From positions 1 through 64,000 of the forward strand of contig JAJYOK010000007.1 of the NCBI GenBank assembly GCA_021796215.1: DNA of 64,000 bases. Reading direction: 5' to 3'. This document shows positions 20,195 to 49,461 of the stretch, in pieces; the first letter of the stretch is position 1, and each line of letters starts with the position of its first letter. The notes below the pieces were generated by a model that saw only the letters and a list, made by a program, of their open reading frames with translations, did not search any database and had not been told where the DNA came from. Origin of the DNA: Bacteroidota bacterium. Its GTDB lineage: Bacteria > Bacteroidota > Ignavibacteria > UBA10030 > UBA8401. A program made the translations under genes and the position numbers.

Positions 20195-21730
20195 TTACTT
20201 CAGCAGAGTCATTTTCTTTGTAACAGTGAAGTTTTTCGTTTTCATTGTGTAGAAATAAATTCCCGAAGAAAGTTTAGAGGCATTGAGAGTGACAACATGA
20301 GTTCCCGCGCTCATATTTTCATCAATCAGTGTGGCAACAGTCTGTCCGAGAATATTCTCTACGGTTAAGACTACATGGTCTTTTTGCGGCAGTGTGAATT
20401 TGATATTCGTTGTTGGGTTAAATGGGTTCGGGTAATTTTGAGTTAAATCAAATTTTCCCGGCGTTATAGACTGCTGACGCACAGCGTCCACAACAACAGT
20501 CGGCAATGTTCCGGTGTAATGCCATTTTTCCACAACCCAACTGTAAAACGATTGTGTAAACATATCATTATTTTCATCGAAACCAACATCGTACAAACTC
20601 GCATATCCTGCAATATGAAGTGTGTCGCTGAATACCTGCGTTGTGTAACTGCCGGTGCTGTCAAAATAATATTTTGCTACATCCAAACTATCCATCCTTG
20701 ATCCATCGTTTGGATCAACTTCAAACAATTTAGAATACTGATAACCGCTGTATCCGGTTTGCGACAATATATTATTTCCAAGCCAGCGTGCCGCAGTAAT
20801 AAAGAGAAGATTGTTGTTCCTCATATATGCCATACCAAGCGGATGTGCTGTAAGCCATTTTCCGTTTGTGGTATCGTATAACGTGTTTGGAATTGTGTCG
20901 GCATCACTAAGTGCAAAGCTGAAGTTATTGGATTTAGTATACCCGGAAGTTGGGTTACCAAGATATTTCACAACGTTGTTATCGCTTACGCTTGAAATAA
21001 AAAGCTGATGTCCATCGGGACTTACAGCTAACCCGCGATAAACACCTTCTGGCAGGTCAATTGTCGTTATCGGACTTGAGTTGTGTAAATCTGCCCACTG
21101 TGCGTCGTCTTTAATTCCTTTGAAAACTTTGACCTCATCAGTTATTCCCGCGCTGCCATAAATATCAAGGACGTAGACATAGCCATTATCATCAACGGCT
21201 AAGCCCATAATATCTTCGGTTCCCGTCATCATTCGATAATCTGTAGACATAACACTATCCGGTGACGATGCAAATCGGAATACGAGAATATTGTGGTCGG
21301 GGTCATTGTTCGCAACATATACCAGACTATCCGACGTCCCAACTGCTTTATATGCACGATACAATTGAACCTCATCGAAGCCGGATGCCCATTTCATAAA
21401 AAAGCCGTTAAGTTCGCTGCCATAACCCGGGATGTATGTTACCCGCCCTGTAAAGTCAGTAGCATTGGAATATCCGGCAAGAAAATTTGTAACCACGCTG
21501 TCTTGTTTGTACACATCATCCCATGTTGAGTCGGTTTGTCCTGCCGGGATGACTACTCGTGAAACAAGCGCCACAAAAGTATTTGCGTTGATAACAGCAA
21601 CACTGGACACCTGGTCGCTCGGTCCATTCGGTCTGTCATCCTGCGTGGCAAGCACAGTGTTCCACTGAGAGTAAAGCGAAAAGGGGAGAAGCATGGAAAA
21701 AACGAAAAGCAGTACCAAAGTTTTTTTCAT
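20195..21730 (-). CDS. Secreted beta-propeller-like protein with T9SS C-terminal sorting domain
   Basis: 511 residues from the ATG at 21730, chosen because AGGAGG lies 7 bp upstream and the reading begins at once with a signal peptide (MKKTLVLLF..., cleavage near LYSQ). The middle resembles an NHL/SMP-30-type propeller (VYVLDIYGSAG, GLAVSPDGHQLFISSV). The last 85 or so residues are a type A T9SS sorting domain: NYPNPFNPTTNIKF, then LGQTVATLIDE, and a final KKMTLLK. It should cross the outer membrane by T9SS and stay at the surface or be released. It is divergent from the TonB receptor gene at 21944 and may belong to that locus. Confidence 0.87.
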   Translation of the reverse strand: MKKTLVLLFVFSMLLPFSLYSQWNTVLATQDDRPNGPSDQVSSVAVINANTFVALVSRVVIPAGQTDSTWDDVYKQDSVVTNFLAGYSNATDFTGRVTYIPGYGSELNGFFMKWASGFDEVQLYRAYKAVGTSDSLVYVANNDPDHNILVFRFASSPDSVMSTDYRMMTGTEDIMGLAVDDNGYVYVLDIYGSAGITDEVKVFKGIKDDAQWADLHNSSPITTIDLPEGVYRGLAVSPDGHQLFISSVSDNNVVKYLGNPTSGYTKSNNFSFALSDADTIPNTLYDTTNGKWLTAHPLGMAYMRNNNLLFITAARWLGNNILSQTGYSGYQYSKLFEVDPNDGSRMDSLDVAKYYFDSTGSYTTQVFSDTLHIAGYASLYDVGFDENNDMFTQSFYSWVVEKWHYTGTLPTVVVDAVRQQSITPGKFDLTQNYPNPFNPTTNIKFTLPQKDHVVLTVENILGQTVATLIDENMSAGTHVVTLNASKLSSGIYFYTMKTKNFTVTKKMTLLK

Positions 21731-21789
21731 TGTGATTCCTCCTAATGCTGATTGTGAATGGGAATTGTTATTTGGAAGCAAGTAATGTG

Positions 21790-21818: not shown

Positions 21819-21862
21819 GCTAATGTAGGGAAAAAATTAAGGGAGAAATCTTCTGTTTTCAC

Positions 21863-21943: not shown

Positions 21944-24871
21944 ATGATCAAATGCTACTGTGCGTTGCTCCTTTTTGTTTTCTTTTTCTTCACTTTTGGG
22001 GCGCATGCCGGTACGACAGGGAAAATTGCCGGCAAAATTACCGATGCAAAAACCGGCGAGGCTCTTCCCGGTGTTAATATTGTTATTGTAGGCACACCTC
22101 TCGGAGCGCAAAGCGACCCCAGCGGACAGTACACTATTCTCAATATCCGGCCTGGCACCTATTCTGTCAAAGCAACTTTGATCGGTTATCAATCTCAAAC
22201 TGTTGTCAATACCGGTGTTGCCGTTGATTATACAACAACGATAAATTTTAGTTTAACCGAATCCGCGGTTGAGATGCAATCTGTTATTGTTCAGGGCGAA
22301 AGAAACCCGCTCATCCGGCCCGATCAAACAAATCCTGTCGCCGCAATTTCTTCTGAAACATTTCAATCCTTGCCGGTTACGGAAATCAGCCAAGTTGTCG
22401 GCTTGCAGGCAGGAATTGTTGTTGATGATAATGGCGACCTGCATGTTCGGGGCGGGAGGAGCAACGAAATATCTTATACCTTGAACGGTTTGTCAATTAA
22501 TGATCCGTTCAATAATCTTGGTTCTGTTGGAGTAGCGACCAACGCATTACAGGAAGTATCGGTTTCTACCGGAACATTCAGCGCTGAATATGGCAATGCG
22601 TTGAGCGGCGTCGTTAACTATGTTACGAAGGAAGGCGGCGCACATTATACGGGAAGCATACGAACATATTCCGGTGATTATGTGAGTAATCATTCAGATG
22701 TGTTTCCCGATATTCAAAAAGTAGACCCATTCAATCAATACAGGTTAGAAGGAACGCTGGGTGGACCGATTCCGCTTACTTCAAACAATAATTTGACATT
22801 TTATGCTTCAGGAGTTTATCAAAGAAATAATGGCTATTTGTATGGCAAGAGAATTTACAACACTACAGATTTTTATGTTTCGAGAGACCAATTGAATTGG
22901 TCTTCTTCTACCGACCATAACGGGGTCATGAATATTAACCCGACAACAGGCGACACTACGTACACAGACCCGCGCGCGGGAGCTCTCAACGATCCTTATT
23001 ATTTTAATCCGTTGAACAAGTCACGATATGATTCGCTGGGATTGCCGTCGGGAAATGGTGCGATTGTCCCTTTGAATACAAGCGATTCCTATAATATTCA
23101 GGGAAATCTTTCATATCATATTTCGCCGACACTGAAATTGAAATACGAAGCAGTCGCAGATCATGGACACAGTTTTAGTACGCTTTATTATTCTTATCGT
23201 TACAACCCTGATGGCCGTCCCCAAAACTTCAGTAATTCAATGATTCACTCGCTTGATTTAACACACACAATCAGCAATGATTTATTTTACACTGTGAAAC
23301 TTGCCTATAGTTCAGATAAAAATGAAACGTATGCATTTCCAAGCATTAACGATCCGCGGTATCTTCCGAGTTTTTACCAAACGACTTTCCCAAGCACAAG
23401 TTTCCTTTCCGGCGGAACGTACAATGAACGAACGATGCAATCAACGCAAACATACTCGGCGAAATTTGATATTGTTGCAGAGCTGTTTGACGAGCACGAA
23501 GTAAAGTTCGGCATTGAAGCGCGGGCACACAACGTGAAGTATGAGGATTATTCCCTCGAGTTTGTTGATGCCAACAATCCTTCCTATGTGTTGACACAAT
23601 CTCATGGATTTTACGATGTGTATCTTGACAGCATCCGTTACGTTGCCCGAATTCCCAGCGTAGCAAATGGCTACACCTATTATTCGCGCAATCCAAAACA
23701 ATTTTCGACGTACATTCAGGATAAAATTGAAATAGCCAAATCGCTTATTTTGAACGCAGGGCTTCGGTATGAATATTTTGATCCCGATGCCTACTACAAT
23801 CCGAATCTTAGCACGGCTCTCTCTAATCAGGACACCACTTTTTTGACTCAAGGTTTAAAAAAAGCATCGGTAAAACAAAACCTTAGTCCTCGCATCAGCA
23901 TTGCATATCCAATTACAGATCAAGGCGTGATACGTTTCTCATATGGACATTTTTATCAGACTGCCAATCTCGCTTCACTTTATTCCAATCCGGATTATCG
24001 TGCATCGTTCGGAACGACCCCGGCATTTGGTAACACAAATGTCAATCCACAAAAGAGCGTTCAATACGAAATCGGATTACAGCAAGGGCTTACGCCTGAT
24101 TTTCGCATGGACGTTACAGGATTCTACAAAGACGTTCGCGATTATATATATACCGAAACTGTTCTTACTGCAAAGGGCGATTTGCAATATCAGGTATTAA
24201 CCAATCTCTCATATGCAAATTCCCGTGGTATCACAATATCATTGTATCAGAGAAGAACACCGGGAAGCCTCTTTTCGGGCTCGCTGGATTATACATTCGC
24301 TGTTGCTGAGGGCAACCGCACAGAACCGCAAGCAGAATTATTTTACAGTGAGAAATCTGGAGAATCACCGGAAACATTTTTGGTTCCGCTGAGTTTCGAC
24401 AGAACTCATACGCTAAATGCCGTTCTTACACTGAGCGAACCCAACAACTGGTCGGTAAGTACAATTTGCCGTCTCCAAAGCGGCAGCCCCTACACACCGA
24501 GCTTTCCGGCAAGTCTTTCGACACAGCAATCGCCGTTTATCCAAAACAGCGGAAGCAAACCGCTTCAGTGGTCGGTTGATTTGAAAGCCGAAAAAGATTT
24601 TCAACTGGGAAGCTTTACCTATGCAGTATTTCTGCAGGTAAATAACGTGTTTGATGTTAAAAACCAACTTGATGTTTGGACAAATAGCGGTCAGGCGCTC
24701 TATAGTGCAGATCAAGTGGTAAATCCGTACGAATTTACACAAACTCGAAGCAGAATCGTACGTGGCGATGCCGGAATGATTCCGTTAGATGCAATAGATA
24801 AATATTTTGTTAACCCGCTGAATGTAAGCAGACCGAGATTGGTGCAAGTCGGATTGTCTATGTATTTTTAA
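21944..24871 (+). CDS. TonB-dependent outer-membrane receptor (locus C)
   Basis: 975 residues. Signal peptide (MIKCYCALLLF..., cleavage near AHA/G), then a carboxypeptidase-regulatory-like domain (about 25-105; GKIAGKITDAKTGEALPGVN), a plug domain (about 115-230, with LHVRGGRSNEISYTLNGLS and GTFSAEYGNALSGVVNYVTK) and a long beta-barrel that ends in an aromatic residue (MYF). This is the SusC-like layout without a SusD partner. It should import a substrate across the outer membrane using TonB energy. A large secreted protein and a PorV-family gene follow on the same strand. Two paralogues lie at 35594-38647 and 46435-49461. No substrate can be inferred. Confidence 0.92.
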   Translation: MIKCYCALLLFVFFFFTFGAHAGTTGKIAGKITDAKTGEALPGVNIVIVGTPLGAQSDPSGQYTILNIRPGTYSVKATLIGYQSQTVVNTGVAVDYTTTINFSLTESAVEMQSVIVQGERNPLIRPDQTNPVAAISSETFQSLPVTEISQVVGLQAGIVVDDNGDLHVRGGRSNEISYTLNGLSINDPFNNLGSVGVATNALQEVSVSTGTFSAEYGNALSGVVNYVTKEGGAHYTGSIRTYSGDYVSNHSDVFPDIQKVDPFNQYRLEGTLGGPIPLTSNNNLTFYASGVYQRNNGYLYGKRIYNTTDFYVSRDQLNWSSSTDHNGVMNINPTTGDTTYTDPRAGALNDPYYFNPLNKSRYDSLGLPSGNGAIVPLNTSDSYNIQGNLSYHISPTLKLKYEAVADHGHSFSTLYYSYRYNPDGRPQNFSNSMIHSLDLTHTISNDLFYTVKLAYSSDKNETYAFPSINDPRYLPSFYQTTFPSTSFLSGGTYNERTMQSTQTYSAKFDIVAELFDEHEVKFGIEARAHNVKYEDYSLEFVDANNPSYVLTQSHGFYDVYLDSIRYVARIPSVANGYTYYSRNPKQFSTYIQDKIEIAKSLILNAGLRYEYFDPDAYYNPNLSTALSNQDTTFLTQGLKKASVKQNLSPRISIAYPITDQGVIRFSYGHFYQTANLASLYSNPDYRASFGTTPAFGNTNVNPQKSVQYEIGLQQGLTPDFRMDVTGFYKDVRDYIYTETVLTAKGDLQYQVLTNLSYANSRGITISLYQRRTPGSLFSGSLDYTFAVAEGNRTEPQAELFYSEKSGESPETFLVPLSFDRTHTLNAVLTLSEPNNWSVSTICRLQSGSPYTPSFPASLSTQQSPFIQNSGSKPLQWSVDLKAEKDFQLGSFTYAVFLQVNNVFDVKNQLDVWTNSGQALYSADQVVNPYEFTQTRSRIVRGDAGMIPLDAIDKYFVNPLNVSRPRLVQVGLSMYF

Positions 24872-24951: not shown

Positions 24952-27900
24952 ATGAAAAGAATTCTCATATTTTCTCTCTTCACAGTTTACATGTTTGTGT
25001 TTGCCGTCGCGCAGGATACAACAAAAATTGATTGGCTAAAAATGGATGCCAAAGGTTTAAGCCCTGCGCAGCTTGTTGAATGGAATAGAGCACAAGAACG
25101 ATTTCATAAAACTTCAGGGTATTCTTCAGAAATTAGAAGCCTTATTATTCAAGGGAATAAGATCAAGACAATTGTTTACAATTACGGCTCGATAAGCCGT
25201 CCCGGTTTGACTCCGGATGTTGAGGATTTAGTATGGCACGGTTTAGGATATGGTTATGAATTTGGTCCACTTGTAGGTGCGAAAGTAAAAGATGCAAACA
25301 CGCCTGGCTCAACCGATTCTACTGAGTATAAAATTGTCTCTGAAGGTTTTTGGTCGTCGGCTGACGGGGAATATGGGCCCGACGGTACAAAGTGGGGTTG
25401 GTTGCCGGAACCGGGGTACGCGGCTGAGGGGCAGCCGGATATTGCAAGCTGGGGTGCACGCGCTACTGTGAATAATGATTTAACACATCGCCCGTTAAGC
25501 TGGCCCGAATCATGGTACAATCCCACGTTGGGTAGATATGTATGGCCCGCATATCTTGGCTCCGATGCCACAACCCCTGATGAAGAAGTTTATTTTGTTG
25601 TAGATGATTATACGAAGAAGGAATTTGCGTATTATCCCTTCGCGCCTGCCGATTCGACGAAACGAGGCTTAGGCGTCCGATTAGAATGCCGGCTCTTTCA
25701 ATTTCAAAATGCGCTTGCACAAGATATTATCTTCCTTGTTTATACAGTTGAAAACTCAAGCCCGCGTACTTTGCCTAATGTTTTTTTCGGAATGTTTGGT
25801 GATCCTCATATAGGCGGAGCAAACGATTATTCTGATGATGACGCGTCTTTTATTCCTGCTCGTGAAGGAACAGTATTTAACAACGGACAGGACCTCACGT
25901 ATGTCAACGGTGTTTTAACTTCTCAACGCTCGCGGAATCTTGTCTATGCATGGGATGATAATGGTAAGGGTGATATTCCGGGAATAGTGCCGGGGTATTT
26001 CGGGTACAAATTTCTTGAAAGCCCGTCAAACAGCAACGACGGTATTGATAATGATGACGACGGAATAATTGATGAAGATCCGTTTAATGACAAGGGATAT
26101 TATATTGATGGCGTCCAATATCCTCTGACGACAGGCATTGCGGACGTTGATAAGTATAAAGCAGTGTATGGTAATCCGAAGCCGCGTTGGTCTGGGGATG
26201 AGAACGGTAATTGGGATCCGGAAAAAGATGATGTCGGCATTGACGGTATTCCAGGTACGCACGACTATGGAGAAGGGAACGGGGTTCCCGATCAGCTTAT
26301 TGATGCCAATGGTAATTGGTTAGGTTCCGAGCCGGATTTCGGATTTCGCGATGTCAATGAGTCGGATCAAATAGGTTTGCGTAGCTTTTGGGCATTACCA
26401 TTTGGCGGAACTAATCGTCCGAAGAATGATTTACTGATGTACGACAAAATGTCATCGGATACGTCTGACGTATCTTTGTTATATCCTGCGCCAGCGAGTG
26501 ATAATATTTTTCTATATGGTTCTGGACCTTTTACCTTGCATCCCGGTGACCGCCAGCGTTTTTCTATTGCGCTTATTTTAGGTCAAACCCTTAATGATCT
26601 TTTATTGCATTCCGAAGCATCTCAGCGCGTGCTAGAAGCGAATTACCGCTTTGCTCAGCCGCCTCCGAAACCCCGTGTTACTGCAGTTGCCGGTGACGGG
26701 CGCGTAACGCTGTATTGGGACAATTCTGCTGAGGTCGGTGTTGACCCGTTGACCAATCTCAACGACTTTGAGGGATATAAAATCTATCGCAGCGAAGATT
26801 ACACATTTAAAGATGTGTTCACCATTACGGATGCAAATGGTACTCCCTTTATTGGCAAGCCGCTGTTTGATGTTGATGCAGGCAAGTATGCACAATGGCA
26901 TCTGCCGTGGAGTGATTCGCTGAAGAATATTTTTGTAGATGGATTCCAGCCTGTAGAATACCCGGGCTATCATGTCAAATATTATATGGGTGACCCATCG
27001 GATAATTCCGGTCTTCGTCATCAATATGTTGATTCGACCGTGACGAACGGAAAGACGTATTATTATGCAGTCGTTTCATATGACTACGGTTCCTTCACTC
27101 CGAGTTTGCAGCTTCCGCCCACCGAATCTCAGGCGACGATTACCCGCAACCCTGTGACTCAGGAATTGAAATTTGATGTCAACACCGTTGCGGCAACTCC
27201 GGGTCCCGAGGCGGCTGGCTTGAAGAGCATTATCAACGATATTGAAAACGGTGCAACGATTCACCATAATGAAAAAGGAAAGGCGACCGGAAAATTAAGC
27301 ATTGTTGTGCTTGACAAACAACAGTTGGGCAATAATGACTACACGCTTTTCTTTACAAAGGACAGCAGTGCTTTATCTTACTCAGTGTTTCGACAAACCC
27401 CATTTTCTGAGAACATCATCGGACGGGATACACTTGTTATTGCTTTGCAGCATCAAAATATTGTTCCATCAAGTTTAATGATAACAGACGCAAACGGAAC
27501 TCCGATTCCTTCAAGCTATATCGTCGTTGATTCTGTCACTGGTCAAATACATGCAAATACATCCGGCAAATTGTTGACCAATGTGCCATATACTGTTACT
27601 TATCAGTACTATCCGATCGTTAACAGCACACTTAAGAATAGTGAGGATGGTAATCCGGTGTTTGACGGAATTCGACCTTTTGTTCAGGATGACCCGCTTG
27701 CAATTGATACCGTAGGCAGCGGCTTTACCACAACAGGGACAAATATTCAAGGCGCTGTCAAGGTTTCAACAATTGGAAAGCCGACGTTAGCACCCTTTGA
27801 TGTTGAGGTTGTCTTTACTTCTCTGGATACTGACAGCGGCAAGTATGTAACTCCGGGTGATACACTTTCACCAACTGCGGGCCCAGTGAAAGTTGTTGCG

Positions 27901-28515
27901 CCGTTTCACATTTACAATGCAACTGATACTACCAAACTGACAACAATTATTGAAGATAAAAACAAAAACGGCTTATGGGATTTTGGTGAAAAAATTATTG
28001 TATTGACACCGCCTCCATATAAGACTTCTTCTACAAGTTCTATGATGGAGATAGATTTTTCTAAATCTTCGGATTCATTGCTTCAGCCCGCGATTCATGG
28101 CGGCGAAACATTCGTAGGGAAAATGAAGAAGCCGTTCACGGTTAACGATACGCTTATGTTCAGTACGCAAAAAGTTTCGTATGACCAGCAGCTTGCAAAT
28201 CAGGAACTAGACAAGGTGATTGTTGTTCCCAATCCCTATGTTGAAGTCAGCACGTTTGAACAGCCGGGAACGACACCGACGTCGAGAGGGAACAGAATAA
28301 TTCAATTCCGTAATTTGCCGACCGAATGTACAGTTAGAATTTACACGTTGACCGGCGAGCTTGTTCGAACACTTCATAAGAACGACACGACAGGCTATTT
28401 GGACTGGGATGTTTTGTCTTCGGAAAGCGCCCGCATCGGTTATGGCGTGTACATTTATCAGATAGAAACGCCAACCGGCGGCACGCGCATTGGAAGGCTC
28501 GCTATCATTAAATGA
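24952..28515 (+). CDS. Very large secreted protein with FN3-like module and VPNPY-type C-terminal domain (locus C)
   Basis: 1,187 residues with a signal peptide (MKRILIFSLFTVYMFVFAVAQ). The N-terminal 600 or so residues are an unrecognised region containing acidic, calcium-loop-like runs (NDGIDNDDDGIIDEDP; GDENGNWDPEKDD). A fibronectin type III-like module follows (about 570-700; AGDGRVTLYWDNSAE, GYKIYRSED, KTYYYAVVSYDYG). Another acidic loop (DKNKNGLWDFGEK) is near residue 1003. The last 100 or so residues resemble a T9SS/FlgD-like C-terminal domain (VIVVPNPYVEV, CTVRIYTLTGELVRTL, final LAIIK). It is probably exported by T9SS with help from the PorV protein encoded next. Paralogues of its C-terminal half are at 33028 and 44135. 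Confidence 0.85.
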   Translation: MKRILIFSLFTVYMFVFAVAQDTTKIDWLKMDAKGLSPAQLVEWNRAQERFHKTSGYSSEIRSLIIQGNKIKTIVYNYGSISRPGLTPDVEDLVWHGLGYGYEFGPLVGAKVKDANTPGSTDSTEYKIVSEGFWSSADGEYGPDGTKWGWLPEPGYAAEGQPDIASWGARATVNNDLTHRPLSWPESWYNPTLGRYVWPAYLGSDATTPDEEVYFVVDDYTKKEFAYYPFAPADSTKRGLGVRLECRLFQFQNALAQDIIFLVYTVENSSPRTLPNVFFGMFGDPHIGGANDYSDDDASFIPAREGTVFNNGQDLTYVNGVLTSQRSRNLVYAWDDNGKGDIPGIVPGYFGYKFLESPSNSNDGIDNDDDGIIDEDPFNDKGYYIDGVQYPLTTGIADVDKYKAVYGNPKPRWSGDENGNWDPEKDDVGIDGIPGTHDYGEGNGVPDQLIDANGNWLGSEPDFGFRDVNESDQIGLRSFWALPFGGTNRPKNDLLMYDKMSSDTSDVSLLYPAPASDNIFLYGSGPFTLHPGDRQRFSIALILGQTLNDLLLHSEASQRVLEANYRFAQPPPKPRVTAVAGDGRVTLYWDNSAEVGVDPLTNLNDFEGYKIYRSEDYTFKDVFTITDANGTPFIGKPLFDVDAGKYAQWHLPWSDSLKNIFVDGFQPVEYPGYHVKYYMGDPSDNSGLRHQYVDSTVTNGKTYYYAVVSYDYGSFTPSLQLPPTESQATITRNPVTQELKFDVNTVAATPGPEAAGLKSIINDIENGATIHHNEKGKATGKLSIVVLDKQQLGNNDYTLFFTKDSSALSYSVFRQTPFSENIIGRDTLVIALQHQNIVPSSLMITDANGTPIPSSYIVVDSVTGQIHANTSGKLLTNVPYTVTYQYYPIVNSTLKNSEDGNPVFDGIRPFVQDDPLAIDTVGSGFTTTGTNIQGAVKVSTIGKPTLAPFDVEVVFTSLDTDSGKYVTPGDTLSPTAGPVKVVAPFHIYNATDTTKLTTIIEDKNKNGLWDFGEKIIVLTPPPYKTSSTSSMMEIDFSKSSDSLLQPAIHGGETFVGKMKKPFTVNDTLMFSTQKVSYDQQLANQELDKVIVVPNPYVEVSTFEQPGTTPTSRGNRIIQFRNLPTECTVRIYTLTGELVRTLHKNDTTGYLDWDVLSSESARIGYGVYIYQIETPTGGTRIGRLAIIK

Positions 28516-28556
28516 CGATTATGAATGACAGACACGGATTCTTTGGAGTATTTCGA

Positions 28557-38500: not shown

Positions 38501-38647
38501 TCCATCAATGATAACGCTGACACCCGGAAGGGGCTGACCTGTTTCTGCGTCGGTTACTTTGCCTGCTATCTTCCCGGTCGTTCCGGCGAAGAGGGAGTTG
38601 AAGACTCCCAATACCATTGCTATCAGCAAGACACGCGCAAATTTCAT
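35594..38647 (-). CDS. TonB-dependent outer-membrane receptor (locus B)
   Basis: 1,017 residues; GGAGGTAG precedes the ATG. Signal peptide (MKFARVLLIAMVLG..., cleavage near LFA/G), carboxypeptidase-regulatory-like domain (about 22-105; GKIAGKVTDAETGQPLPGVS), plug (about 125-235; ILVRGGGANQTIYVVDGF; GGFNAEYGNVRSGIVNVITK) and a barrel ending in Phe (GIRINF). It starts 56 bp after the PorV gene of this locus and ends 31 bp before the secreted FN3 protein, so the genes are surely co-transcribed. It is more similar by eye to the locus A receptor (shared HISFGIRINF/TVYFGIKFTY ends and DGFxLxDxR) than to the locus C receptor. Confidence 0.92.
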   Translation of the reverse strand: MKFARVLLIAMVLGVFNSLFAGTTGKIAGKVTDAETGQPLPGVSVIIDGTTMGAATNVDGSYAILNVPPGTYNIKFSMIGYEKVVVEGLRVEIDLTANANTQLRSTALVTGEIVVTASRPIVAKDVSNSVLNIQTASVEAMPVQTVTEVLTLQAGIQQGSSGILVRGGGANQTIYVVDGFRLNDERSDIPYAAVSLSSAKEIQVQTGGFNAEYGNVRSGIVNVITKDGDRSRYSATVNVNYAPPQQKHFGLSPYDPNSYFNRPYTDPAVCWTGTNNGAWDTYTRESYPTFEGWNAVAQKMLQNNDPNPLTPSELQRLWEWQRRRTGDINKPDYTLDAGFGGPVPFISEPLGNLRFYLTYFGERDMFVVPLSRDAYTDNHTEVKLNSDISPNMKLTVMGLYGEDNSVSPYEWTTTPTGYLMRSQSEVADLLSSTDGMNVLYMPDRYSPSSVYRYIFGASLTHVLSPSTFYDLSIQQNHNQYNTFQTTTRDTSKTYQPVPGYFVDESPNGYWGYSTGAVDGVMSMGGWMNLGRDQSVVTTTSLLFSLTSQIDKVNQVKTGFQYYYNDMNVNSGTYSPSMSTWTRSLVYHIFPYRIGAYAQDKLEFQGFIANLGVRLDYSNPGTDYYVLNPYSPVYGAGQGNQIGQLAPTEKAASQFYISPRIGISHPITENSKLYFNYGHFVSEPSSSYRFLLQRESNGQVDYMGNPNMAYEKTIAYELGYEQNMFNTLLFHLAAYYKDITNQPGWILYQSINLSANYYEATSNNYADIRGFEATLSKVTGGWIRGFINYTYDVVSSGYFGVQTYYQDINKQRNYLLINPQQSKPVPQPYARANVEFISPETFGPRVAGVNPLGDWSLSLIGNWQSGAYGTYNPNNTPGIANNVQWVDYYNVDMRLTKIFRGLPVSGMDLQFYMDISNVFNFKYLNTAGFVDSYDYQDYLASLRFPWEDGVQKGNDRVGDYRPAGVAYDPLQPNPGNDPAITAANNKRISTKSYINMPNDESMAFLNPRHISFGIRINF

Positions 38648-40124: not shown

Positions 40125-41468
40125 TTACTTCAGCAGAATCATCTTGTTCGTCAGGCGTTGGTTACCTGATGCCAAGACATACAGATACGTGCCGGAAGCA
40201 AGCCGTGAAGCATCGAACGTTGCACTGTATGATCCGGGTGTAAGATTTTCGCTCACCAGTGTTGCGACTTCTTCACCGAGAATGTTGTACACCTTCAGTG
40301 TGGTAAAGCCGGATTTTGCCACTGAGAACTTGATCTGTGTTGACGGGTTGAACGGATTCGGATAGTTCTGCGACAACGAGTAGCTGTTCGCCACTACATC
40401 TGGCTGGCGTTGAACACCTACTGTCAATGAGAACTCCTGGCAGAAACCGTTCTCAGGACCGAATGCACACACATATGCCTTTGAACCATCAGGGCTGAAT
40501 GCAATGCCTCTCGGACGCGGGTCGTTTGCAATACTATCAAGAGGAATACCAGTGTTTCCATTCCATAAAATACTGTCTTTCAAAACGGGATTGGAACGGT
40601 TAGTCATATCAAAGCCATACCATGCATAGCCGCTGTAATTGCCCGTGGGCATACCGCTAACGATGTTGCCCGAGCTAACCCACAGATATCCTGTATGCGG
40701 CTGCCATGCAGCGCTTTCCACTACAAGGTCTTTGAATACCGTATCTACCAACGTGTATGAACCGAGAGTTCCCAGGTCAGAATGATAATGCGGGACTCCG
40801 TGTCCAATGAGTCCTATGTACACATCGTTTCCATCTCCGGTAACCATAACGTTCCTTGAGAAGGCTCCATACATGCTCGTATCAACGTTTGCAGACACAG
40901 AGCTAAAATCTGACGCAAGAGCAACGGGACCTACGGCAGATGTCGGCACAACTGAGGTGATGAAGACCTCATCCGCATCATCGCACATTGGTGATGTCAT
41001 TGAGCTTGCATAGCCCGGGATCGGGTCGTTCGCTGTTGCCATCATTACATCAGTCTGGTAATTGAACTTGTGCAACGAAAGGCTGCTTTTAACAACCACA
41101 ATGTTTCCCGAGTGATCTGCACACATTCCGTACCCTGCTCCGGGGGCGAAAAGCGTATCAGGGCTGCCGTTGTACTGAACGACGGGTCCGACTTTTCTAT
41201 TAAGAGTGCCGTTAGGATTATACACATTTATGTAAAATCCGTATGTTGTATCAGTGCCATTAACAAGAGTGTCCCTTACACCGGAAGAATAGGGAGCAAG
41301 CCACACATTGCCCGCTCCGTCCACAGCAACTGTGTTGTTAATTCCACCTGCCCAATGGGTGCTGGTATCCGGGAACACTTTCACGAATGTCCCTTGAGCG
41401 TACATTGCAGTAACGCTCAGGCACAACAAAGCTCCCAATACCGCGGAAATAGAAAGCCATTTTTTCAT
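40125..41468 (-). CDS. Secreted beta-propeller-like protein with T9SS sorting domain
   Basis: 447 residues; AAGGAGG precedes the ATG, and a signal peptide follows (MKKWLSISAVLGALLCLSVTAMYAQ). Short propeller-like strands are visible (VDGAGNVWLAPYSSG, FSPDGSKAYVCAFGPE). The last 85 residues are a type A T9SS sorting domain (QNYPNPFNPSTQIKF; LGEEVATLVSENL; final NKMILLK). It is similar in design to the protein at 20195. It lies between locus A and locus B with its own promoter flanked by two near-identical 17-bp repeats, so it seems separately regulated. Confidence 0.88.
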   Translation of the reverse strand: MKKWLSISAVLGALLCLSVTAMYAQGTFVKVFPDTSTHWAGGINNTVAVDGAGNVWLAPYSSGVRDTLVNGTDTTYGFYINVYNPNGTLNRKVGPVVQYNGSPDTLFAPGAGYGMCADHSGNIVVVKSSLSLHKFNYQTDVMMATANDPIPGYASSMTSPMCDDADEVFITSVVPTSAVGPVALASDFSSVSANVDTSMYGAFSRNVMVTGDGNDVYIGLIGHGVPHYHSDLGTLGSYTLVDTVFKDLVVESAAWQPHTGYLWVSSGNIVSGMPTGNYSGYAWYGFDMTNRSNPVLKDSILWNGNTGIPLDSIANDPRPRGIAFSPDGSKAYVCAFGPENGFCQEFSLTVGVQRQPDVVANSYSLSQNYPNPFNPSTQIKFSVAKSGFTTLKVYNILGEEVATLVSENLTPGSYSATFDASRLASGTYLYVLASGNQRLTNKMILLK

Positions 41469-41707: not shown

Positions 41708-42979
41708 TTAATGCAATCCATAATTTGTGGAGCCTTGTTTTTGTGGTGCAATTTTTAAGAGACCGCCGCCAGATGTGCTTGCGTAGAGTGTTGTTCCCAC
41801 CCAGGCGAACGATTTACAGGCAGATGTCAACACACCACTGCTTACGTACAAGGGGTACGGTCGTTCAACACTTCCATTGGAACCGACAATGATCAGAAAA
41901 TCTGCTGCATCTGTTCCAACATACATATCGCCCTCTGCGGAAAACGTAATTGCCAAAATGTTCGGGGGAGTGCCTGTGTAAGCAGTGGAAATATCGAAAT
42001 AAGTTTCGATATTTCCAAGTGAATCGCCGACAATTGGCGCCCGAAATACTTTATTAGCTCCACTGACTGTTGCCGCAAAATAAAGGTAGCCGTTAAAGCA
42101 ACGCATTGCACGAACATTACCGACAAAAGGAAACGATTTAGTGCTTTTATCGTTAATATTTACTCTATAAATAGCCTGGTTATTGCCGCCTACCCAAAGG
42201 TTATTATTCGCGTCGAAATCCAAATCGTTAAATGATGTTGCAGCAGGGGAAAAGGAACTAATCCAATGTGCCGTTGCACCTCCGGGATTTGTCGCTCCCG
42301 GAACAAGTTGATAAACTATTCTCTTTCCATTGAGAGCGTAAATATTGCCGTCGGGACCAAACTTTATAGATCCCCAATAAGAATTGATTGGTGAAGTTGT
42401 GGGCAGCACATAGGCAGTTCTGTTAATAGTTCCATCAGAAGTGATTTTGAAGATTCCTTCATCCTTCACTGAAAGATTCGCATTGAAAAGTGATGCGTAA
42501 AGAGAATCATCCGGTCCGATGCATAAACCGTATGCGCTTTCACCGCTTGCGAGCTTGCTGAATGGGCTTACTGCGGCGATTAGTTTGTATGTGATTGTCG
42601 GGCTAAAATTTTCAGCGCCGACCACATACACTCTCACTTGGATCGTATCGCCGGATATGGCTGGTGCTTTCACAACCAATTTCGTAGGACTTGCACTGAT
42701 AATGGATGTGTTGTAAAGCAGCGTTGCATTAAAATAAATGCCGTCGTTTGCTTTATCGGCGGAAAAATTTTTTCCATAGATCGTTATTGTATCAATGCCC
42801 GCAAGTGCACTACCGGCAGGGGACAAGCTGTCTACAATGGGCTGAGGCGAGCCCTTATAATTCTGATCATAAAGGCTGGGCGCGTCTACCTTTGTACAGC
42901 CGCTGAGAAACAGAAGAACACCTGCGGCGAAAAATGCGAGGGCAAGGATTTTCTCAATAGTAGTTTGTCTCAACTTCAT
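41708..42979 (-). CDS. IPT/TIG-domain beta-propeller lipoprotein (locus A)
   Basis: 423 residues; AGAGGAT lies upstream of the ATG. Lipobox LSGC (Cys28). The IPT/TIG domain spans about 48-135 (VDSLSPAGSALAGIDTITIYGKNF) and is followed by an NHL-type propeller (IGPDDSLYASLFNAN, FGPDGNIYALNGKRI, FDANNNLWVGGNNQAIYRV, FSAEGDMYVGTDAADFLIIV). It is a clear paralogue of the protein at 31719, at the same place in its locus: last, after receptor, secreted protein and PorV. A lipid-anchored surface accessory is the likeliest role. Confidence 0.87.
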   Translation of the reverse strand: MKLRQTTIEKILALAFFAAGVLLFLSGCTKVDAPSLYDQNYKGSPQPIVDSLSPAGSALAGIDTITIYGKNFSADKANDGIYFNATLLYNTSIISASPTKLVVKAPAISGDTIQVRVYVVGAENFSPTITYKLIAAVSPFSKLASGESAYGLCIGPDDSLYASLFNANLSVKDEGIFKITSDGTINRTAYVLPTTSPINSYWGSIKFGPDGNIYALNGKRIVYQLVPGATNPGGATAHWISSFSPAATSFNDLDFDANNNLWVGGNNQAIYRVNINDKSTKSFPFVGNVRAMRCFNGYLYFAATVSGANKVFRAPIVGDSLGNIETYFDISTAYTGTPPNILAITFSAEGDMYVGTDAADFLIIVGSNGSVERPYPLYVSSGVLTSACKSFAWVGTTLYASTSGGGLLKIAPQKQGSTNYGLH

Positions 42980-43101: not shown

Positions 43102-44112
43102 TTAGTACGAGAAGTGGAACGCTAACCGCTGAACGTTTCCGAGAATTCCGAAAGGAGTATAGGCATAATCAAGACCGATCATAAGATTATCAAACTGTTT
43201 TTGTACGCCTACACCGCCGGTGATGCCGTATTCATCGTTATTGAACATGTAACCGCCGCGCAGCGAAAACATCTGCATGAATGTATATTCCAATCCGACA
43301 TTCACCTGTTCAGGATAATCTCGCGGGTGTGTAGCATTAACAGCGACATTCAATGATTGTATTTTACTATCCATATCCCATAAATCGAGCACGTTCATTG
43401 AAATACCAAGATGGAAAATAAGTGGAAGGTCGAAGCTTTCTTCTTCGTATTTAATTTGACGTGAAAAGCTTCTAATATCCATACCGAATGCAAAACTCTT
43501 GAAACCTGTTCTGTAGATCATACCGAAATCAAAACAGGGGACGCCCTTTCTCTCTTTCGTATAGACGTACTTTCCGTTTGCGTCGTAGTTCGTAATGGTT
43601 GACCCGAGATCCTGGTACACGTAGCTGATATCTCCGCCGACAGCAAATTTATCGCTAAGTGCATTGGCATACCCTAGCCCCACAGAATAGGCAGTAGGGG
43701 AGAATGTTCCAACATCAAGAAATCCCTCACTATTGGTGGCGAGAACGGTCTGCTGTAAGTCTCCATAATTGACGGACCGAAAAGTGAGTCCAAAGACGCC
43801 ATAATCACCGTTGAAAGGACTGACAGCAATACTTCCATACGTATGGTTAATGCCAGCAATCCAATTCACCATTCCGACTGAAACGTCAGCGGAATTACCC
43901 ATTCTTGCCATTCCGGCTGCATTGAAAAACATCGAAGATGAATTGCCATCCATTGATGTTACCGCTTCTCCCATTGCTTCCGCCCGCGGATCGGTAGAGA
44001 CATTGATGAAGCCCATACCTGTTTGAGCTAACTTTTGCTGCCCATACATAATTGCCGGCAGGGAGAGTGATACAATAATAACAGCATGAATAAGAAATCG
44101 AATTTTGCTCAT
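43102..44112 (-). CDS. PorV/PorQ-family outer-membrane protein (locus A)
   Basis: 336 residues from ATG 44112, chosen for GAGGA about 8 bp upstream and the immediate signal peptide (MSKIRFLIHAVIIVSLSL..., cleavage near YGQ). The longer open frame to 44226 would run into the upstream gene and is rejected. It has the family signature KLAQTGMGFINVSTDPRAEAMGEA and FFNAAGMARMG, and a barrel very like the 38703 protein (SFAFGMDIRSFSRQIKYEEESFDLPL against SLAFGMSVSNFSREIAYERESFELPL, quoted in part). It starts 22 bp after the secreted FN3 protein. Confidence 0.88.
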   Translation of the reverse strand: MSKIRFLIHAVIIVSLSLPAIMYGQQKLAQTGMGFINVSTDPRAEAMGEAVTSMDGNSSSMFFNAAGMARMGNSADVSVGMVNWIAGINHTYGSIAVSPFNGDYGVFGLTFRSVNYGDLQQTVLATNSEGFLDVGTFSPTAYSVGLGYANALSDKFAVGGDISYVYQDLGSTITNYDANGKYVYTKERKGVPCFDFGMIYRTGFKSFAFGMDIRSFSRQIKYEEESFDLPLIFHLGISMNVLDLWDMDSKIQSLNVAVNATHPRDYPEQVNVGLEYTFMQMFSLRGGYMFNNDEYGITGGVGVQKQFDNLMIGLDYAYTPFGILGNVQRLAFHFSY

Positions 44113-44134: not shown

Positions 44135-46378
44135 CTACCTAATGACGACAAATTTTCTCGTTGCAACGAGCCCGGCAGGAATTGCGTCGTGTGTAACCGG
44201 GTCAGTACCGCCAGCCGTTGTTTCAAAAACAGCGATATATATTCCGCTCACAACAATCTGGTCAGACGACGTTGTAAGATTCCAGTACTCATCACCGCTG
44301 CCGTTCGTGTGCTGAATTGTTTTGATCAACTGCCCAAGTTCAGTAAATATCCTGATAGTACACTGCGATGGAATATTTAAAAAGCCGATTTGGTTCGGTT
44401 CACCAACATACCGGAGTGTGTTTTGGTTAGCCGCAATATTGTAAGGATTCGGTACTACGCGTATCTGATCCAAGTGCCATGCACCGTTCTGTTTTACCGG
44501 AGCAACACCGGGTCTGAGAAGCTTTGCGGGATCATAGGTCTGCGTATAATAGCGGCTGCTTTCAAGTGCACCACCCGGTGTATTGCCTGCACCATTGTTA
44601 TCAGCGGCGTCTCCTGTGGAAGTAATATAATAGTAGTAATCGAATCCACGGACTGCAGTGGCGTCATCGTAACTTGTAACATTCGGAGCGCACTCATACA
44701 ACAGCGTATATGAACTATCATACAATCCTTGTGCTCTGTAAATTTTAAAACCCTTCACTTTTGGGTCTTGCGGTGGAGTCCATGAGAGAGAGATTTTATC
44801 TCCGCCGGAAGTTACGCTGAAAAGCGAAGGTGGTAGGGGAGCCGATGGAATATTGTATCCCGAGTGATAATTTGCAAGTGCTCTGCGAAATGTCTGGAAG
44901 AGAGAATCTCTGCCAGTATAAACAGAATCATCTTTTTGTGCCGCAGTTATTTCTCCCCATTTGAATTCATGTCCGATTCTGATACATGCTTCGCGGCTCA
45001 ATCCCGCTGCTGCTTCTGCCATGACAATGTGAAAACTTTGTCCCGGTGCAAGATTATATGGTCCGTAACCGTTAGCCACAGACAATCCACCTGTTGATCC
45101 CTGTGACGGGTCGCCGCCTAAGCCAACTCTATCCGCGAGACGTTGTCCCTGCCAATTTACTTGGCCGGCAAGCCATCCGACGCCGTGTCCTGCTGACATC
45201 AACGCGTATTCCGATTCCATCTTCGAACTGTTGAATTGACTGCTTTGCGAATTTAAAGGATCGTCCGAGCTTACATACGCTGTTGTTGTCGGCTCGCCCG
45301 TGTCATCTGTTGTATCGGTTGCAGATTTATCGGCATGAAGAGTTGCAATGCCGATAAACTGTGCAGAGCCCAATCTTCCCATTGTATCATCTGCCGCAGG
45401 TCCAGGTCCAGTTGACAAGGCTCTGCCCCATATAGGACCTCCGATGTTATCACTTGGAGGTGCACCAGTAACGCCGAGACCAGGCATTCCGGGAAACGTA
45501 TAACTTCCATACGTTGGGCTATTGAAATTTCCCAGCCATGTGTATTGTGCCCTGATATCATCATCTGCATTGACCGGTGTATTTGTCCTCACAACCGAGC
45601 CAAAGAAAGTGGAAGCGGGATTCAGTTTATCGCCGCGGGTATCGTTGTTGGCACCGATGCCCCATCCTGCAGAGTTGGAGCCAATAACGTAGCGGGTTTC
45701 AGCGCAAACCGCATATCGATATTGAAAGAAAATTCGTATGCTGTCAAGCGTTTGAGTAGGAAGTTCTGCTGCCGGAGTTGCGTCTACATTTCCGGTGTTT
45801 GTAAATGTATAATCATAGATGATGTAATTATCGTGGTACTGTTGGGAGAAGCCGATCATTTTTCTGACCATCGTCAAACCGATTGCCGTGTTCACACTAT
45901 CATAGATCATTCTGTCAGCATTTAAGTTCGGGTCAGTATTGTCAACATCCGGAGGATTATTATACGACGTATTGCCATCCACGATGACCTGAACAGGGGA
46001 AATTTTATCAGTTGTTGTGAATGCCACTGGAACAAATTCCGAAGCGTCGCCGTCGAATCGGGGACCGAAGTGCACGACCTTCACTGGCCACGTTGTGCCG
46101 GAGGCATCTTTCCAGTTTTTGATTCCAATCCACAGTCCCTTTGCCGCCTGCATATCCATATTAGGATAAATTGCTGGCCAGCGGCAGCCGTCCTGCTGCG
46201 TCAATGTCCTTTGTTCTTCATACTCGCATCCGGCATTTGAATACCAGCTTTGAAATGATCCTATGTCCATCCACTTTGTTGCATACTGAGCAAAGGCGGA
46301 GCTGCTTAGGAACAACAGCCCAACCACCGCCCTTGTTACGAAGTACCTTAGCGATTGTCTTTCAATTTTCAATTTCAT
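44135..46378 (-). CDS. Large secreted protein with FN3-like module and VPNPY-type C-terminal domain (locus A)
   Basis: 747 residues from the ATG at 46378, which has GAGGA 5 bp upstream; an ATG 18 bp earlier is less well placed. Signal peptide ends near AFAQ. Residues 25-470 are homologous by eye to the locus B protein (shared FSQQYHDNY, GxADKxxxDxxDD-type segment HADKSATDTTDD against HVDKSATDRSDD). The FN3-like module is at about 490-590 (VTSGGDKISLSWTPPQDPK; GFKIYRAQG; RGFDYYYYITSTG). The C-terminus has RVVPNPYNIAA and CTIRIFTELGQLIKTIQ, ending KFVVIR. It lies 56 bp after the receptor gene and 22 bp before PorV. Export by T9SS is inferred. Confidence 0.85.
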   Translation of the reverse strand: MKLKIERQSLRYFVTRAVVGLLFLSSSAFAQYATKWMDIGSFQSWYSNAGCEYEEQRTLTQQDGCRWPAIYPNMDMQAAKGLWIGIKNWKDASGTTWPVKVVHFGPRFDGDASEFVPVAFTTTDKISPVQVIVDGNTSYNNPPDVDNTDPNLNADRMIYDSVNTAIGLTMVRKMIGFSQQYHDNYIIYDYTFTNTGNVDATPAAELPTQTLDSIRIFFQYRYAVCAETRYVIGSNSAGWGIGANNDTRGDKLNPASTFFGSVVRTNTPVNADDDIRAQYTWLGNFNSPTYGSYTFPGMPGLGVTGAPPSDNIGGPIWGRALSTGPGPAADDTMGRLGSAQFIGIATLHADKSATDTTDDTGEPTTTAYVSSDDPLNSQSSQFNSSKMESEYALMSAGHGVGWLAGQVNWQGQRLADRVGLGGDPSQGSTGGLSVANGYGPYNLAPGQSFHIVMAEAAAGLSREACIRIGHEFKWGEITAAQKDDSVYTGRDSLFQTFRRALANYHSGYNIPSAPLPPSLFSVTSGGDKISLSWTPPQDPKVKGFKIYRAQGLYDSSYTLLYECAPNVTSYDDATAVRGFDYYYYITSTGDAADNNGAGNTPGGALESSRYYTQTYDPAKLLRPGVAPVKQNGAWHLDQIRVVPNPYNIAANQNTLRYVGEPNQIGFLNIPSQCTIRIFTELGQLIKTIQHTNGSGDEYWNLTTSSDQIVVSGIYIAVFETTAGGTDPVTHDAIPAGLVATRKFVVIR

Positions 46379-46434
46379 TTTTTCCTCAGGATTCATTTTT
46401 AAAAAACAAGCACTTCTAACACTTACTGTTTTAG

Positions 46435-49400
46435 TTATGGTATGTCGTATGTAAATTTAATTCCAAAATAGACAGTTCTTGGATTGAGAAAAGCTATCTG
46501 AGAAAATTTCGGCATATAGATATATGGTTTACTTGCGGACTGATAATCTCCGGGTCTGTCGTTACCCGGCGTGTTGACGTACCCCAACTTTGTATGTGTC
46601 GAATCACCGGCGATCGAAGCAGGCAGATGGAGAGACATCATGTATTTATTGAAATCATTTCCGTCATAGAAACCATAGAAGGGTGAGAAATATTTAAGGT
46701 TAAATACATTGTAAATATCTGCCAAGAATTCCAAATTAAGACCGGCGAAATGAAAGGCACGGCTTATTCTGAGGTCGAAGTTGACATAGTCAGTCCACTC
46801 AACGTTGTCCTGAACTCCCGGGATTGAACCGCCACCTGCCCATGTAAACCACTGTCCCGCTACCCAACTACCAAGAAGATTGAAATGCCAATCTTCAAAT
46901 GGTTTGATTCCCGCCCAGCTCGGGCCGATGCCTGTCGGCGTAAAGAAGTCTAGGTTCAATCTTGCGTATGGCTGTGGAAGTGGTTTTGTTTGGTAAAGGT
47001 CTGTGTAATTATTTAAATCATACTGCCGCTGATCAGCCGGACTTTGATACTGCACTGCATATCCGAATCTGCCTGAGCTTGTGACTTCGTAAGTATAGTT
47101 TATAAAACCATGAAACCAGTTTCCTTGATTCTTTGAAAGGGTTGCTTCAAAACCCCTAATGTCTTCGTAAAGATTGCTTGTGTACAACGAATAGTTAACT
47201 TTGCTGTCCGCACTTCGGTAAGTTGTGGTTGTTCTTTCGTCTGAAACATCCTTGTAATATCCGGCAAGGCGAAATAAATACTCGTCAAATAAACTCTGTT
47301 CGAAGCCTAATTCGTAAGCAATCGTTCGCGGAAGAGGAGCATTTGGGTCTGCAACCAAACTCACGTTATTAGTTCCTGTCAGCCTGCGGATAAGATACAG
47401 GTTATCCGGAGTAGGCATAGAATAGAAATGTCCATAGTTGAAATACAATTTTGAATTTACAGTTACCGGGAAGGAAACACCTAAACGAGGCTCAACCTCA
47501 ATAATATTTTTGGTCGGCTGCTTTGAAACAGTATCAAGTCCGATAAGATCAGAGCCGGAGAAAATTGTAGAATATTGATTGTTAATATTATACCATTGGC
47601 CTCCCGCATGGGAATCGTCAACTCGTATGCCAAGGTTCGCTACCATTCCTTCGAATTCTATTTTATCCTGAGCGTATAGCGATGCACGGAATGGATACGT
47701 GTGCCAATGCGACCACGATGTTCCTGTGGGGAGATACGTTTCAACGGTCGCGTAGCTGACATCATTGTTTGTTGAAGTCATCTCAATGCCAAACTGAACC
47801 TGATTATGATCATCAACCTGACTTGTCAAATCAAACTTTCCATCGTAGGTTGTGATCTTGCTGCTGTCACGACCGGTGCTCATACCAATACTCATTCTCA
47901 TACCGTCAATTGCACTGGAAGGAAATGTCCAGAATCCGACTGGTGCTTCATCAGCATAGTAATAATTTCCAAACTGATAAATTCTAGAAGTATCACGGAG
48001 TGCGGGCGGATTAGTGCTATAGTTGGATCCGCTCTGGCGTACGTTAATTTCATAAAATGTTTTGGAGCTGATTGCGTGAGAGAATTTCGCGCCGTACATG
48101 TTGAAGTCTACCGTGGTCGGGGCCCAGTAGTCATATGTAAACATTCGAGCGTCGGCATAGTTCGCTCCTCGGTATTGTCCAACATTAAACCCGAAGTCTT
48201 CGCTTGTTTGAAAAATTCCCGGCTGTCCGGCGTTACTGCTGCTTGTGCCGGTTTGCTTTCCTCGTAATCCTTCAACGATAAACTTCATTCCCGGACCAAC
48301 ATCCGATGTTAACTTCAATGTGCCGTTATAATTCCGGTAGGCATCAGTTGACAAGGGGATCATGTACATTGATTGCTGCTGTACGTACGAGGCCCAGAAG
48401 CGGAGGTTGCCCAGTTTCTTACTTACGAACGGAAAAGGTCCGCCGAAACTTGCATCAATGTTATAGTTCGGTTTCAGTATGCTGAAATCTTTTCGATGCT
48501 GCCACTCCCACAATCGTTGTGCGGCGGTTGGGCTTAAAAACTGCGACGAATCTCCTCTTGCTAAAGTTTTTTGTGACTCTGCAATCCATCCATCGAAGGT
48601 CGGATAGTTTGCTTGTGTTCCTGCATCCCACGCGCCATTGCTTGTCCCATAGTAAGATACTGCGGGATCCATGTAGGGTCTTACATAGTAAGTGTTTATT
48701 CCGTTCAGAGGTCCGCCAAAATTCTGTGCCTGTGGTGGAGCAATGCGTGTGAGAACGCTGATGGTATAATGATCTGTGCTTCCATCGTTGGTTGTGACAT
48801 TGACCACACCTGACCTGATGTTGCCGTACTCTGCATTGAACCCGCCGGTCTGGACTTGAATATCGGAAACAGATGTTAAGCTAATATTTGTATAAGCGTA
48901 ATTGTTACGCGCATCCCGAAGAGTGAAACCATCAATGTTAAAAGCTGTTTGATCACTTCCAGCTCCACGAATTACTAGACCGCTCGCATTACTTTGAACG
49001 CCAGCTTGCAATAAAATGGCGCCGGCGACACTAACAGTTGGGATTGATGCGACATCTTGCGGAGTGAGGTTGACCGTGCTTGCCGACACGTCTTTTTGGA
49101 TTACAGGTTTCGTAGCGGTAATTACCACTTCCTTTGTGGTAACGGCTGCTTCGGATAACTTCATATCTATCGTTGTCGTTTGGTCAATCGAAACGCGGAC
49201 GTTTTCAACCACCGTTGTAGTATATCCAATGATTGAAGCTTTTACCATGTATGTCCCCGGAGGTACGTTCAAAATTGCATAATAGCCGTTCACATCCGTC
49301 GAAGCGCCCATTGATGTTCCCTCAATAAGCACGTTGGCAGAAATTAATTTCTCTCCAGTTGTTGCGTCGGTGAGAGTACCTGCAATTTTTCCTGTCGTTC

Positions 49401-49461
49401 CCGCAAGGGCAAGGGAGGTTGAGAGGATACAGGTCAGCACCCAAATAGAAACAACTTTCAT
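46435..49461 (-). CDS. TonB-dependent outer-membrane receptor (locus A)
   Basis: 1,008 residues from ATG 49461, chosen because AAAGGAGA lies 9 bp upstream and the signal peptide begins there (MKVVSIWVLTCILSTSLALA). Carboxypeptidase-regulatory-like domain about 22-105 (GKIAGTLTDATTGEKLISAN), plug about 120-235 (LVIRGAGSDQTAFNIDGF; GGFNAEYGNIRSGVVNVTT), then a large barrel. It is the first gene of the locus A operon: receptor, secreted FN3 protein, PorV, IPT lipoprotein. Confidence 0.92.
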   Translation of the reverse strand: MKVVSIWVLTCILSTSLALAGTTGKIAGTLTDATTGEKLISANVLIEGTSMGASTDVNGYYAILNVPPGTYMVKASIIGYTTTVVENVRVSIDQTTTIDMKLSEAAVTTKEVVITATKPVIQKDVSASTVNLTPQDVASIPTVSVAGAILLQAGVQSNASGLVIRGAGSDQTAFNIDGFTLRDARNNYAYTNISLTSVSDIQVQTGGFNAEYGNIRSGVVNVTTNDGSTDHYTISVLTRIAPPQAQNFGGPLNGINTYYVRPYMDPAVSYYGTSNGAWDAGTQANYPTFDGWIAESQKTLARGDSSQFLSPTAAQRLWEWQHRKDFSILKPNYNIDASFGGPFPFVSKKLGNLRFWASYVQQQSMYMIPLSTDAYRNYNGTLKLTSDVGPGMKFIVEGLRGKQTGTSSSNAGQPGIFQTSEDFGFNVGQYRGANYADARMFTYDYWAPTTVDFNMYGAKFSHAISSKTFYEINVRQSGSNYSTNPPALRDTSRIYQFGNYYYADEAPVGFWTFPSSAIDGMRMSIGMSTGRDSSKITTYDGKFDLTSQVDDHNQVQFGIEMTSTNNDVSYATVETYLPTGTSWSHWHTYPFRASLYAQDKIEFEGMVANLGIRVDDSHAGGQWYNINNQYSTIFSGSDLIGLDTVSKQPTKNIIEVEPRLGVSFPVTVNSKLYFNYGHFYSMPTPDNLYLIRRLTGTNNVSLVADPNAPLPRTIAYELGFEQSLFDEYLFRLAGYYKDVSDERTTTTYRSADSKVNYSLYTSNLYEDIRGFEATLSKNQGNWFHGFINYTYEVTSSGRFGYAVQYQSPADQRQYDLNNYTDLYQTKPLPQPYARLNLDFFTPTGIGPSWAGIKPFEDWHFNLLGSWVAGQWFTWAGGGSIPGVQDNVEWTDYVNFDLRISRAFHFAGLNLEFLADIYNVFNLKYFSPFYGFYDGNDFNKYMMSLHLPASIAGDSTHTKLGYVNTPGNDRPGDYQSASKPYIYMPKFSQIAFLNPRTVYFGIKFTYDIP

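Follow-up and report, generated by a model that had tools for sequence, protein, structure and literature searches.

The window analysed here, a stretch of 64,000 nucleotides (C36:1-64000) from a genome of 3.37 Mb in 44 contigs, carries three gene sets, A, B and C, each of which encodes consecutively and on the same strand a TonB receptor (R), a secreted FN3 protein (X, 750-1,190 aa across the three sets) and a barrel of the PorV/PorQ family (P); sets A and B additionally encode a TIG-propeller lipoprotein (L) (Table 1). The gene order is R-X-P-L-propeller in A and P-R-X-L in B, both on the minus strand, and R-X-P in C, on the plus strand. The open reading frame of A_R was called from a GTG at 49503, and we adopted the in-frame ATG at 49461, ahead of the signal peptide; an alternative TTG start of A_P at 44226 would make this gene overlap X.

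Table 1. Genes of sets A, B and C and the T9SS cargo genes adjoining them, with positions in the window
Feature	Positions	Strand	Basis
A_R, TonB-dependent receptor, CarboxypepD-reg N-terminal domain and plug	46435..49461	-	Pfam PF13715, PF07715
A_X, secreted capture-like protein: supersandwich, FN3, PorZ-like tail	44135..46396	-	AlphaFold2, structure matches
A_P, PorV/PorQ-family outer-membrane barrel, likely A_X anchor	43102..44112	-	NF033709, 178 bits (cut-off 90)
A_L, TIG and propeller-like lipoprotein, probably surface-exposed	41708..42979	-	PF01833, Cys lipobox
A_c1, propeller-like T9SS cargo, canonical type A tail, A operon gene 5	40125..41468	-	PF18962
B_P, PorV/PorQ-family barrel	38703..39785	-	NF033709, 193 bits
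B_R, TonB-dependent receptor	35594..38647	-	PF13715, PF07715; 42% identity to A_R
B_X, A-type secreted capture-like protein	33028..35562	-	Homology to A_X over whole length
B_L, TIG and propeller-like lipoprotein	31719..32963	-	PF01833; 47% identity to A_L
FG-GAP T9SS cargo adjoining set B	29669..31522	-	PF13517, PF18962; homologues in 6 other loci
C_R, TonB-dependent receptor	21944..24871	+	PF00593, PF13715, PF07715
C_X, C-type secreted capture-like protein, FN3 and PorU-like tail	24952..28515	+	FN3/tail homology to A-type; weak PorU match of tail
C_P, PorV/PorQ-family barrel	28512..29594	+	PF19572; NF033709, 217 bits
C propeller-like T9SS cargo, divergent from C_R	20195..21781	-	PF18962; homologues in L203, L204, L207, L209, L212

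The first-pass annotation had described three R-X-P sets with L in A and B, and this description was borne out, every ORF being present, with CarbopepD_reg_2 and Plug in all R, PorV/PorQ-family matches in all P and TIG in both L. BLASTP comparisons indicated that the members of A and B are all close paralogues (42% identity for R, 42% for P, 47% for L and 34-55% for X) and that C is related along the full lengths of R and P (A/C identity of 41% over the N-terminal 220 aa of R and 27% for P), with the similarity between A_X and C_X confined to the FN3 module and the tail. The annotation had also placed a T9SS cargo propeller gene beside each set; such a gene accompanies A, as the fifth gene of the operon, and C, on the opposite strand and divergently oriented, but the neighbour of B is an FG-GAP protein. 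Elsewhere in the window, an enzyme of family GH43 that also carries F5/8 type C and FN3-like domains (52919-54922) lies upstream of set A with opposite-strand genes between them, and two very long ORFs of 2,000 and 1,860 aa (34-6036 and 7191-12773) lie outside the sets.

A scan of one genome per GTDB species with a profile of the A-type X yielded 514 relatives; we retained 80 loci, which span Ignavibacteria, Calditrichota, KSB1, Rhodothermia, Balneolia and further Bacteroidetes; the C-type X profile matched 53 of 61 relatives, in at most 10 copies each. In this search for co-occurrence, which had been suggested at the first pass, the members were not scattered apart. Among A-type loci with enough flanking sequence, R precedes X in 55 of 56, P follows in 52 of 53 and L follows in 50 of 53; among C-type loci, R lies beside X in 46 of 47 and P in 44 of 47. 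The T9SS-tail protein c1 is found downstream in 43 of 53 A-type loci with enough flank, and its homologues in 58 of all 80, and the propeller cargo of C is kept beside C-type sets of other families. X directly follows R in most sets. Across 75 sets from 44 genomes, tree distances of X correlated with those of R (r=0.954) and of P (r=0.923), and none of 500 within-genome partner shuffles gave correlations as high (maxima of 0.671 for X-R and 0.746 for X-P). Because these correlations exceed those of the shuffles, we conclude that the R-X-P sets evolve as fixed units, and the constant membership first noted within the window holds across genera, families and phyla, with near-perfect collinearity and partner fidelity. 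The same genome encodes additional R-X-P sets, recognized by profiles, at L064, L065, L067, L068, L069, L072 and L073, for a total of about 10. A-type and C-type sets lie approximately 15-35 kb apart on one contig in the window (21944-49461), at L083 and in other genera (G025:C74, G058:C64 and G067:C26), and the set cluster itself may be conserved. In a C-type subclade, a PPIC-type (rotamase) protein adjoins P (L189:5293-6957 and L065:6187-7806) and is perhaps a dedicated chaperone.

It had been noted that the window contains no SusD gene, and this absence extends to the whole genome, in which PF14322, PF07980 and PF12771 were all without a match; PF14322 is present in 10 of 100 relatives. In addition, the receptors score below the cut-off of the SusC/RagA family TIGR04056 (368), A_R at 52 bits and B_R at 84, and C_R gave no match. 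We considered and rejected the possibility that the module replaces SusD everywhere: Rhodothermia and Balneolia, class labels that were inferred for the SusD-bearing genomes from named loci, hold the A-type operon alongside SusD. A 2023 survey described susCD as 'scarcely detected' in the CAZyme clusters of Ignavibacteriales and absent in Kapabacteria, with distinct machinery, and the portion of that survey cited here names no susCD replacement (PMC10576277). No published description of an R-X-P module was found in the open-licence literature, and one may exist elsewhere.

The P proteins pass the model of the PorV/PorQ family, NF033709, at 178-217 bits against a cut-off of 90, and fail the PorV and PorQ equivalogs, at 73-89 bits against cut-offs of 250 (NF033710) and 220 (NF033711). 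Since they score below both equivalog cut-offs, they are separate paralogues, and the genome's own PorV (268 bits) and PorQ (239 bits) are encoded elsewhere. The core of the T9SS is thus present, with SprA at 1,099 bits and PorU at 1,003 in addition to these two. At L063:3847-12267 (G000:C14), porU and porV form a pair, and an inactivated M6-type T9SS protein is encoded after them; these are the canonical T9SS attachment genes of the genome.

An AlphaFold2 model of A_X (pLDDT 86.9, from an alignment of 80 rows) comprises a beta-supersandwich at residues ~37-520, an FN3 domain at ~525-600 and a T9SS C-terminal domain at ~645-753. The first of these matches the N-domains of GH94 phosphorylase, GH116, GH15-type and GH65-type enzymes (Z 15-18.6; VIA), those of the GH94, GH116 and GH15 types having a Z of about 18 over 235-288 residues of a galactose-mutarotase-like supersandwich, and A_X lacks the (alpha/alpha)6 catalytic barrel of those enzymes. 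The predicted fold suggests sugar binding, as a hint that is no proof by itself; YidC shares the supersandwich fold (5mg3, Z 12 to A_X). No SusD-fold match of A_X was found among the structure matches listed. For C_X, the model reached a pLDDT of 31 from 4 alignment rows, three of them 5'-truncated; a scan of viral contigs for more C-type X sequences found none, and profile comparison of the A-type and C-type N-domains gave a weak match (48% over 41 columns).

In this genome, sister sets are embedded in recognizable polysaccharide loci. One set on C14 is arranged as GH28-R-X-P-...-GH88-LacI-GDSL-GH28, another on C14 as R-X-P-GH94, one on C19 as R-X-P-GH13 and one on C30 as R-GH18-X-P. In a census of 155 genes contiguous with C-type sets and on the same strand, the functional families seen most often were GH144 (23), LacI (18), GH13 (12) and GH94 (11), and the census also included GH16 (3), GH2 (2), GH3 (2) and GH43 (2); in an opposite-strand control of 93 genes from the same loci, GH31 (2) was the only GH family among the 25 most frequent of 59 families. 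Here GH144 denotes PF10091, which we take to be that family, and its profile was built without the T9SS tail, as a tail-bearing version matched 175 proteins via the shared tail. The enzyme context is strongly clustered on the C-type X tree (67 homologues), where it changes 15 times, compared with 29.8 times on average after shuffling: in one clade of 15, all members have GH144 and/or GH94, and another clade is associated with GH13 and LacI. The clade to which C belongs (n=18) has no GH13, GH94, GH144 or LacI nearby, and no CAZyme is encoded in the operons of A, B and C. Thus, the earlier statement that there is no enzyme for a substrate is correct for the set operons of the window but does not extend to their homologues elsewhere in the genome or in relatives, which are accompanied by GH13, GH18, GH28, GH88, GH94, GH144 or GHL10, and a glycan specificity of sets A, B and C is indicated by homology only. 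For set A, 23 of 53 loci encode a GHL10 glycosidase with a T9SS tail no more than 9 kb downstream of the operon, and this conserved gene suggests that the ligand is a glycan. A T9SS-tail N-acetylmuramoyl-L-alanine amidase (Amidase_3) is found near the A operon in 7 loci (L114:1582-4098, L158, L160, L171, L177, L181 and L182), some of which also have GHL10, and an HGSNAT_cat acyltransferase in 5 A-type loci; GHL10 being broad and the co-occurrence partial, we keep peptidoglycan as the substrate of A only as a lead. At L079:7442-15889 (G000:C41), two GHL10 glycosidases are flanked by a FadL/TodX-type (PorV-related) barrel on one side and by a shorter TonB receptor of the CarboxypepD type on the other, which may be another variant of the module. 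Taken together, we consider it probable that R-X-P(-L) serves TonB-dependent glycan uptake and stands in for SusC/SusD in a SusD-less lineage.

The tails of X differ from those of T9SS cargo. A_X, B_X and C_X gave no match to the type A tail family PF18962 and reached 17-21 bits with TIGR04183 (cut-off 23), and the PNPFN core of the QNYPNPFNP motif occurs in 0% of C-type X and 19% of A-type X, compared with 99% of the cargo tails (n=209). Between A-type and C-type tails the scores are 65-72 bits, whereas PorU scores 25-43 and cargo tails about 14-18; at the structural level, the modelled tail of A_X matches PorZ (5m11, Z 12.2 over 94 residues, 23% identity), and the tail of C_X shows a weak PorU match. 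Judged from these comparisons, X tails are a class of their own, unlike the cleavable cargo tails and nearer to those of PorU and PorZ. P genes adjoin 146 X-type tails; one X alone has a tail of the cleavable type, and no R, P or L lies near it. This orphan A-type X (L098:8438-10606, at G070:C25:35437-37605) has a canonical QNFPNPFNP tail and, being one case, is only suggestive of a link between tail type and P. The tails of PorU and PorZ remain uncleaved and bound to PorV and PorQ, respectively, and a review has hypothesized that cognate PorV-like barrels shield certain tails from cleavage (PMC10202324); type B CTD proteins are held by PorP-like barrels (PMC9143113). Because X tails resemble those of PorU and PorZ, which are kept by PorV and PorQ, retention of X on the surface by P would fit better than its delivery to R, and both could occur. 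The same resemblance would also suit an additional platform for T9SS attachment or display, akin to PorQ-PorZ or PorV-PorU, that P and X form to hold co-encoded T9SS enzymes at the surface and beside which R imports the products without touching X; type A tails on adjacent enzymes (34 of the 155 neighbours, and also in sister sets of this genome) agree with such a role. We regard it as unlikely, however, since X is co-inherited with R as tightly as with P and mostly lies right after it, X carries a beta-supersandwich of the carbohydrate-enzyme type, and some sets have no co-encoded enzyme.

The lipoprotein L is probably surface-exposed. A lipobox was found by pattern search in 63 of 70 homologues, and 42 of the 70 have at least two acidic residues right after the Cys, resembling the lipoprotein export signal of Bacteroidota (PMC5080379); a lipobox-like motif is rare in A-type X (2 of 81), which carries the T9SS tail instead. 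A surface lipoprotein partner could also point to ordinary uptake of a micronutrient or metal chelate, as by BtuB-BtuG, with CAZyme neighbours only in some derived sets. BtuG surface lipoproteins stably complex BtuB, according to the portion of PMC10404256 cited here, L has TIG and propeller-type matches (the propeller label of c1 is the call of the first-pass annotation only), and the operons of A, B and C are free of CAZymes; nevertheless, several clades of X repeatedly have CAZyme and LacI genes beside them and GHL10 recurs close to the A operon, and we find this explanation improbable. The genome encodes 22 plug receptors and has 24 matches to the PorV family, and receptors, T9SS proteins and PorV paralogues are abundant enough for some adjacency to be expected. 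A chance neighbourhood without a common function is nonetheless largely refuted already and hardly tenable, since collinearity is almost perfect in different genera, families and phyla and partner fidelity far exceeds that of the shuffles.

Returning to glycan uptake, we infer binding, anchoring and transport by the module and propose the following model. X would leave the cell via Sec followed by the T9SS, and the X tail would escape cleavage by PorU and stay bound to the cognate P, which would serve as the membrane anchor of X in place of the lipid of SusD. The supersandwich domain of X would bind the glycan and present it to the plugged R, which would import it with TonB energy, while L may act as an accessory surface glycan-binding protein and neighbouring T9SS enzymes may pre-digest the polymer. 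The first-pass annotation had proposed a SusCD-like complex in which the PorV protein delivers the large secreted protein to its receptor; membership, partner fidelity, the absence of SusD and the sister sets in CAZyme loci agree well with the SusCD-like part of this proposal, and delivery of X by PorV may occur beside retention. On balance, we lean towards the view that these loci form an undescribed, SusD-independent class of glycan-uptake loci in Ignavibacteria and other phyla of the FCB group, in which a dedicated PorV paralogue holds the uncleaved tail of a capture protein that is a T9SS substrate.

Polysaccharide loci are normally spotted via susC and susD, and the module offers a testable answer to the question of how these abundant bacteria import glycans, with X and P together as a marker for finding their polysaccharide loci. 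The hypothesis that tails are protected by cognate PorV-like barrels (PMC10202324) gains about 10 natural test pairs per genome. If true, this arrangement would add a further mode of surface anchoring to lipidation and A-LPS attachment, with parallels in PorU-PorV, PorZ-PorQ and SprB-SprF.

Among known systems, SusC/SusD (RagA/RagB) of Bacteroidota resembles the module in that the receptor has a plug and an N-terminal extension of the CarboxypepD type and is co-encoded with a large extracellular partner and a further lipoprotein of surface type; the association with CAZyme loci is shared by sister sets and by sets in relatives. In contrast, SusD is absent here, X is a non-lipidated supersandwich-FN3 protein presumably exported by the T9SS, a barrel of the PorV family is always co-encoded, and R lies far below the SusC cut-off. 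The module would work like SusCD yet fails the tests that define it (SusD, the SusC cut-off and a lipidated partner), and may represent a new form of TonB-dependent glycan uptake. Enzymes of the GH94, GH116 and GH15 types have the N-terminal beta-supersandwich in common with A_X, but the catalytic (alpha/alpha)6 barrel is theirs only. The ligand of BtuB-BtuG is vitamin B12, and that system is not known to include a T9SS protein or a PorV paralogue. Its likeness to the module, as far as the cited portion of PMC10404256 describes the system in Bacteroides, lies in the pairing of a TonB receptor with a surface lipoprotein other than SusD. In the pairs of type B CTD proteins with PorP/SprF (PG1035-PorP and SprB-SprF; PMC9143113), a secreted CTD protein is likewise held by a dedicated FadL-type barrel, encoded by an adjacent gene in the case of SprB-SprF; however, those pairs combine a type B tail with the PorP family and have no TonB receptor, whereas the tail here is PorU/PorZ-like and the barrel belongs to the PorV family. 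The PorU-PorV and PorZ-PorQ pairs, in which the tail is retained (PMC10202324), also couple a T9SS-tail protein to a PorV/PorQ barrel and have the nearest tail class, but X is without a sortase or PorZ propeller, P falls below the equivalog cut-offs, and the sets of this genome come with a TonB receptor and, in sister loci, CAZymes.
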